NCBI GenBank assembly: GCA_026989935.1
Contig: JALSIN010000348.1
Location: forward strand, 1 to 35,928
Length of the DNA: 35,928 bases
Direction of reading: 5' to 3'
DNA from: Polyangiaceae bacterium
Lineage (GTDB): Bacteria; Myxococcota_A; Polyangia; Nannocystales; Nannocystaceae
Within the stretch, counting starts at the first letter, position 1. Each line of letters opens with the position of its first letter. A model generated the notes under the pieces. The model was not told the origin of the DNA, made no database searches, and saw only the letters and a program-made list of their open reading frames with translations. This document shows positions 7,782-8,645 of this stretch, piece after piece. The translations under genes and the position numbers were made by a program.

Positions 7782-7801
7782 GGGCGCCCCCCGACGCGCA
7801 A

Positions 7802-7830
7802 GACGCCGCCCCCACGGCAGGGGCGGCGTC
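7802..7830. terminator. Bidirectional terminator hairpin between proA and hpf
   Basis: Perfect 11-bp inverted repeat, GACGCCGCCCC (7802-7812) and GGGGCGGCGTC (7820-7830), with a 7-nt loop. It lies between the convergent ends of proA and hpf. No long T run follows on either strand, so it may act with Rho or as an end-stabilising structure. Confidence 0.6.
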
Positions 7831-7861: not shown

Positions 7862-8233
7862 CTACAGCATCGCGCGACGGCCCGGCGAGACCGCACGAAA
7901 CGACCCGGTCGCGTGCCGTTTGCCCGCGTAGCTTTGGAGCTGGCGCTGCGCCGCGTTGAAGGCGTCGCGGATCGCCGTCCACAGGTCCTGGTGTTCGGGG
8001 TTCCGCTCGGGCTCGCGGTTGACGACGATGTCCTGCCCCGGAACCGACAGATCGATCCGCACGTGGTAGACCTTGCCCTTCTGGTGACGGTTGTGCGGGG
8101 CCTCGACCACCACGCGGCAACCGGTGATCTGGTCGAAGAAACGGTCGAGCTTGGCCGCTTTCGTTCGGATGCGTTCCTCCACCGCCTCGGAGCGCGGAAC
8201 GTTGCGGAACGTGATCTCGAGCGGGACTTTCAT
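7862..8233 (-). CDS. hpf: Ribosome hibernation promoting factor (HPF/RaiA family, short form)
   Basis: 123 aa. The first ~100 residues match the beta-alpha-beta HPF/YfiA fold: LEITFRNVPRSEAVEERIRTKAAKLDRFF, ITGCRVVVEAPHNRHQKGKVYHVRIDLSVPG, then DLWTAIRDAFNAAQRQLQSY. The protein binds the small-subunit decoding channel of idle ribosomes in stationary phase or stress. There is no long-form dimerisation domain, only a ~20-residue basic tail. The ATG at 8233 has a near-ideal AAGGAGGA site. In many proteobacteria hpf is next to rpoN; here it is alone and convergent with proA. The leader carries a strong hairpin with a T tract and an inverted repeat, suggesting regulated expression. Confidence 0.92.
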   Translation of the reverse strand: MKVPLEITFRNVPRSEAVEERIRTKAAKLDRFFDQITGCRVVVEAPHNRHQKGKVYHVRIDLSVPGQDIVVNREPERNPEHQDLWTAIRDAFNAAQRQLQSYAGKRHATGSFRAVSPGRRAML

Positions 8234-8250
8234 CGGGTTCCTCCTTGGGG

Positions 8251-8302
8251 CAAAAAGAACGCGCCCCGTCCGGGCCACGGGGGCCGGCGCGGACGGGGCG
8301 CG
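8251..8302 (-). promoter_or_regulatory. Terminator-like hairpin in the hpf leader (possible attenuator)
   Basis: A perfect 12-bp inverted repeat, CGCGCCCCGTCC (8260-8271) and GGACGGGGCGCG (8291-8302), encloses a 19-nt GC-rich loop. On the minus strand it is followed at once by TTCTTTTTG and then by the hpf Shine-Dalgarno (8240-8246). This is the form of an intrinsic terminator placed between promoter and coding sequence, so it could attenuate hpf or end a small upstream RNA. Confidence 0.6.
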
Positions 8303-8320
8303 GTGTTCACGGTGGAACAC
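8303..8320. promoter_or_regulatory. Inverted repeat GTGTTC-N6-GAACAC, possible operator
   Basis: Perfect 6+6 inverted repeat directly next to the leader hairpin of hpf. The size and symmetry fit a binding site for a dimeric regulator, but no family is recognised. The orientation (GTTC...GAAC) is opposite to the usual GAAC...GTTC LexA box. Confidence 0.35.
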
Positions 8321-8645
8321 GCTCCTAGTGTGACGCACGGGGCAGCCCTACCGACCCGAAAAACCGGGCCCGCCGAAACATCCCAACCCCGCATCGTTTG
8401 CATTGGAATTCTCAGTAGTTACAGATGTGCGTTTTCTCTCACAGCAGACGACCGGGCGCCCGCTCGCTCTTTCGAGCAGATGCGCATCGTGCGCAAGCAC
8501 GGTTCGGTCGGCGCGGCGCGGCGAGGTCGGGCGTACCCGACCCAAACGCACGGGGCCGCGGGGCGGTCTGCGGGCGACGGCGGCCGGCGCTCGGACGGAC
8601 GCCGGTTTTTCGCGCGCGCATTGCGCCTTGCGTACATTGCAGTCC

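Follow-up and report, generated by a model that had tools for sequence, protein, structure and literature searches.

Transcripts of hpf, the gene for a short ribosome hibernation promoting factor, are probably made only when RNA polymerase reads through a terminator-like hairpin in the leader, and on balance we favour a model in which they must cross this genus-specific terminator and its efficiency sets hpf output. The gene lies in a stretch of 35 928 nt that was analysed as a whole (the window) and that belongs to an uncultured deltaproteobacterial lineage in which RNA regulation is little known. Our results show the sequence, the predicted fold, conservation in one congener (G004) and rarity in the genome, whereas start site, termination and regulation are inferred. 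If the model is true, a read-through terminator would couple hibernation directly to polymerase behaviour; the scope is small, at one genus and two genomes. The control described so far for HPF genes acts mostly through promoters (CodY, SigB and the stringent response) and, in cyanobacteria, through leader-dependent stability.

Positions 8332 to 8231 of the minus strand read CACACT AGGAGC GTGTTC-CACCGT-GAACAC CGCGCCCCGTCCG-N17-CGGACGGGGCGCG TTCTTTTTG CCCC AAGGAGG AACCCG ATG, and the following features were assigned.

8351 to 8356, minus strand: putative -35-like hexamer GGTCGG, identical in G004; the -10-like hexamer follows after 18 nt.
8327 to 8332, minus strand: -10-like hexamer CACACT, aligned as CANNNT in the family leaders.
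8303 to 8320, minus strand: P1, a 6-bp hairpin (GTGTTC 8320-8315, loop CACCGT 8314-8309, GAACAC 8308-8303) at or near the predicted RNA 5' end.
8260 to 8302, minus strand: P2, the terminator-like hairpin, with arms CGCGCCCCGTCCG (8302-8290) and CGGACGGGGCGCG (8272-8260).
8252 to 8259, minus strand: U tract TTCTTTTT, abutting P2; the G004 equivalent is TTTTT.
8240 to 8246, minus strand: Shine-Dalgarno AAGGAGG, absent from any RNA ending at the U tract.
7865 to 8233, minus strand: hpf, short ribosome hibernation promoting factor (Ribosomal_S30AE, PF02482, E 9e-17), 123 codons, ATG at 8233-8231.

The P2 stem consists of 13 consecutive Watson-Crick pairs followed, across a 1x1 internal loop, by an inner 4-bp helix, and folded alone it gives -36.9 kcal/mol. 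A terminator-like hairpin with a T tract directly before the Shine-Dalgarno had been proposed in an earlier, sequence-only reading; this arrangement is confirmed by the sequence (5 nt separate the end of the U tract from the Shine-Dalgarno) and is kept in the congener, and the stem, described there as a perfect 12-bp GC hairpin, is indeed perfect but 13 pairs long. The leader fold had a z-score of -5.1 against dinucleotide shuffles (-2.7 for a longer segment). When the 412-nt dacB-hpf intergenic region was shuffled 2000 times with dinucleotides preserved, no shuffle placed a stem of 13 bp against a tract holding at least 6 T in 9 nt (0/2000), and one placed a stem of at least 10 bp there (1/2000); Watson-Crick hairpins of all kinds reached at most 12 bp in 500 shuffles. 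A search of both strands over 237 kb of the window's genome gave 188 terminator-like candidates, of which the P2 site had the lowest energy. The genomic background comprised 446 kb of contigs from the two congeners, with crude ORF calls, and contained one site besides the hpf leader with a stem of at least 10 bp and at least 6 T of 9. Genome GC is 73%, and the 36-kb window holds three runs of five T on both strands, the P2 U tract being one of them. The anatomy of an intrinsic terminator, a GC-rich stem-loop with a U-rich tract immediately after it, is present at P2 and TTCTTTTT, and the pair likely act as an intrinsic (Rho-independent) terminator. An Rfam 15 scan of the leader gave no family match at the gathering threshold, and no raiA family came up there or among the matches at E up to 5; malK-III and Scr3920 were discarded as candidate families, their matches lying far below threshold.

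Other hairpins and T runs were seen nearby. A GC-rich hairpin (GACGCCGCCCC...GGGGCGGCGTC, 7801-7830) sits between proA and hpf, whose ends converge there, with a good T tract on neither strand. At the S13 peptidase gene, a small GC hairpin (CCGGCG-N10-CGCCGG, 8585-8611, plus strand) is directly followed by TTTTT, approximately 35 nt before the start; near the corresponding start in G004 there is a T6 run, for which no clear matching stem was found.

Conservation was assessed in G004, the only sequenced congener (record RFGU01000191.1, Deltaproteobacteria bacterium isolate J032), which is known from a metagenome-assembled genome and whose leader reads TCACACTAGGAACGTGTTC-TTCGG-GAACAC TC CCGCCCCATCGCG...CGCGTGGGGCG TTTTT CGTATCCACCC AAGGAGG AACCC ATG. 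P1 is kept there with a loop of 5 nt, one base shorter than the 6 of the window, and P2 is rebuilt: its stem has 11 bp interrupted by a single bulge (-23.9 kcal/mol) and shows one G-C to A-U exchange. The base of the stem is shifted by two pairs, and the T tract nevertheless abuts it; loops and indels vary between the two leaders while P1, P2 and the T tract persist. Because only two species carry the element, covariation support amounts to that single exchange (two sequences give no covariation power, and the MAFFT alignment misplaced P1). Loss of the stem in relatives had been named beforehand as an observation that would speak against the element; at genus level, the stem is kept. A further block, GTAAC...CAATGCAA (8397-8422, minus strand, approximately 170-190 nt before hpf), is common to both species amid diverged sequence and could be a regulator site.

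In both the window's species and G004, the leader is open in the hpf frame over 36 codons, and an N-terminal extension of HPF was considered and rejected. The conserved blocks GAACAC and AAGGAGGAACCC, the latter identical in sequence in the two species, fall in different reading frames in the window and in G004, and the identities are even over the codon positions (22, 23 and 22 of 36); the region is therefore a leader. Orthologues of hpf across the family have the same ATG as start, each with its own Shine-Dalgarno.

The spread of the element was followed in 74 hpf leaders, from the two species of the genus (g1), 12 members of other genera of the family and 60 members of the class, the class-wide check relying on approximate start codons with the matches as anchors. 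A hairpin with an abutting T tract before the Shine-Dalgarno was present in 2/74 leaders, both from g1; no comparable element was found in the 12 other family leaders or the 60 class leaders, although in three class members a site of much lower strength lies no more than 60 nt from the hpf start. A scan of genome contigs returned, beyond the same congener, only distant loci. The leader terminator thus appears genus-specific on present sampling, and its absence from the other genera of the family means that it is not a general hpf attenuator. In three leaders of the sister genera g7 and g10 (L006, L007 and L008), the region approximately 95 to 20 nt ahead of the hpf ATG could adopt an H-type pseudoknot, in which a 5' strand resembling GTTGCTC would pair with loop bases of a strong stem (GGCGCCGAG with CTTGGCGCC, GGCACCGACC with GGTCGGTGCC; the sequences differ between the three species but match within each). 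As a separate observation, an hpf match at E 0.001 was missing from about half of the family genomes (G003, G007, G008, G012-G019, G022-G024), including near-complete ones of 10-13 Mb in genus g9.

For the promoter, CANNNT was found 93-103 nt before the ATG in 9/11 aligned family leaders, with TGGCAC, TGGCAG or TAGCAG located 18 nt upstream of the -10-like hexamer in five leaders of other genera. With models trained on other genera only, four leaders had the site in first place among 364 positions and the rest had it in second to fifth place; for the window itself, where CACACT is without the first T, the call is weak (rank 2 of 364, score 3.95). The case for this promoter-like pair being the hpf promoter is moderate and not decisive. 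If it is right, transcription of hpf would begin at approximately 8323-8320, where P1 has its foot, and termination at the U tract would yield an RNA of approximately 70 nt; as the predicted start is just 5' of P1, both P1 and P2 should be transcribed. The interval from P2 and its T tract to the Shine-Dalgarno offers no promoter-like (A-N3-T) hexamer, which means that hpf transcripts have to cross P2. A start in that interval was the other observation named in advance as contrary to the proposal; computationally, the promoter-like hexamer shared across the family lies upstream of P1.

Elements that might relieve or sense termination were sought in the leader and in the two genomes. Forbidding P2 costs 32 kcal/mol in the window and 21 kcal/mol in G004, and with P2 forbidden no alternative pairing of its arms was found in either; a mutually exclusive antiterminator fold, the mark of an RNA-switch attenuator, was not found in the leader. 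Given this cost and the lack of a competing fold, a classical RNA switch is unlikely. A candidate antiterminator, a 12-pair match of GGAGCGTGTTCC at the 5' end to the P2 3' arm in the window, was dropped since it is missing among the G004 stems, as was a 26-codon GTG upstream ORF with an ATGA overlap with hpf, which occurs in the window only; comparison of the window with G004 thus yielded no conserved short upstream ORF of the kind expected of a leader-peptide attenuator. Each genome (94-95% complete) gave one PF02357 match, with no second NusG that could be a NusG paralogue. No CAT_RBD protein of the BglG/LicT type was found in the genome, and control genomes gave matches; the search for ANTAR proteins gave 0 matches, the positive control likewise giving none. 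ANTAR antitermination RNAs consist of two hexaloop hairpins with A1 and G4, and the P1 loop, CACCGU, is without A1 and G4. A possible contact between the P1 and P2 loops (CCAC with GUGG) involves four pairs only.

The simplest model holds that the leader terminator is leaky and possibly regulated through the polymerase. Transcription of hpf would start from a promoter approximately 95 nt upstream of the start codon, and the nascent RNA would fold P1 and then P2, the latter serving as an intrinsic terminator. A fraction of polymerases would halt at the U tract and free an RNA of approximately 70 nt that carries no ribosome site; hpf mRNA would come only from those that read through, and termination efficiency would set hpf output. 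The stability of P2 is far beyond what a competing fold within the transcript could overcome, so any control would have to target the polymerase, through its speed and NTP or ppGpp state, NusA or a factor binding P1. Attenuation control of hpf, as the sequence-only reading had suggested, therefore stands in part: hairpin and T tract, their conservation in the congener and the upstream promoter-like element agree with it, but no antiterminator or sensing element was found, and attenuation, taken to mean regulated termination, is plausible. The fuller version, in which read-through is regulated, P1 is the dock of an antitermination factor or a sensor of polymerase state, and slowing growth directly switches on hibernation, is speculative and, taken whole, unlikely.

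The 13-pair G-C-rich stem could serve only as mRNA structure. P2 would then belong to the mature hpf mRNA and, as a structural element, control its translation or decay, with the U tract incidental or pairing with the Shine-Dalgarno. In the window's leader, GTTCTTTTT and AGGAGGAAC can form a helix in which most of the Shine-Dalgarno is paired, but this helix depends on G-U pairs, and its G004 counterpart is weaker and of a different form. In several other genera, strong hairpins (or the possible pseudoknot) precede the Shine-Dalgarno with no U tract, and the leader of lrtA stabilizes the transcript and hampers translation (PMC4956104); against this, in both congeners the T tract directly follows the stem despite the 2-bp shift of its base, and T runs are very rare in the genome. 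We regard this explanation as unlikely.

Two further explanations accept termination and give it another purpose; each is improbable. Under one, the hairpin insulates hpf or terminates upstream transcription. In G004, an AurF-like gene (L023 1618-2736) lies between the S13 peptidase gene and hpf, is codirectional with hpf and ends 264 nt before it, and P2 might stop its transcripts; no such gene was found in the window's genome, where P2 would be a leftover or a stop for stray transcripts. In the window, however, the S13 D-Ala-D-Ala carboxypeptidase gene upstream of hpf is divergent, leaving no upstream gene that needs termination; P1, the -10-like block and the Shine-Dalgarno are conserved together around P2, and hpf transcripts themselves have to cross P2, there being no promoter-like hexamer beyond it. 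Under the other, P1, P2 and the U tract form a stand-alone small RNA of approximately 70 nt with a function of its own, and expression of hpf depends on read-through, a scheme that has been proposed for isoforms of the raiA-motif RNA. A promoter-like element leading to a U tract is small-RNA anatomy, and raiA-motif RNAs, which often adjoin raiA, may carry terminators (PMC11706538); yet nearly the whole RNA is taken up by the two hairpins, with no unstructured conserved seed, and it has no Rfam match and was not found outside the genus.

Least probable is that P1, which the sequence-only reading had called an operator-like repeat, has nothing to do with P2 and serves at the DNA level as the operator of a repressor acting at the start site: the inverted repeat is perfect and closely follows the -10-like hexamer, but its half-sites are 6 nt apart in the window and 5 nt apart in G004, and no regulon emerged, since the five further GTGTTC-N4-8-GAACAC sites in the window's genome are apparently all coding (crude ORF calls) and G004 has the repeat at hpf only. 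Because the spacing differs between congeners, P1 is better read as an RNA hairpin. With five further sites in the genome, P1 alone is not improbable there. We return to the leaky leader terminator for comparison with known systems.

No described leader terminator of hpf was found in the open-licence literature; in S. aureus, a terminator of hpf has been described in the 3' UTR (PMC11347170). Cyanobacterial lrtA, of the HPF family, shares leader-dependent post-transcriptional control; there, a 312-nt leader controls transcript stability and translation, and no description of a terminator was found (PMC4956104). The raiA-motif RNA (RF03072, ModT), which sits beside raiA in many species and may end in a terminator (PMC11706538), and the raiA-hairpin motif, listed among Streptomyces cis-acting elements (PMC8388888), are likewise structured RNAs beside an HPF/RaiA gene, but the hpf leader matches no Rfam 15 family and the phyla differ. 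With leader attenuators based on intrinsic terminators it has in common a promoter, a short leader, a GC-rich hairpin with a U tract and then the Shine-Dalgarno, and it differs from them in that no antiterminator fold, upstream ORF or known ligand domain was found and that termination is here predicted. The nearest architectural parallel is provided by the LoaP leaders of the dfn and mln operons, in which a small RNA hairpin precedes an intrinsic terminator and recruits a NusG paralogue that antagonizes NusA there (PMC12691694). The window's genome and G004, in contrast, each show one NusG-domain protein, and the P1 loop of the window is CACCGU whereas the dfn hairpin has a UNCG tetraloop (PMC12691694); the P1 loop of G004, like it, contains UUCG.
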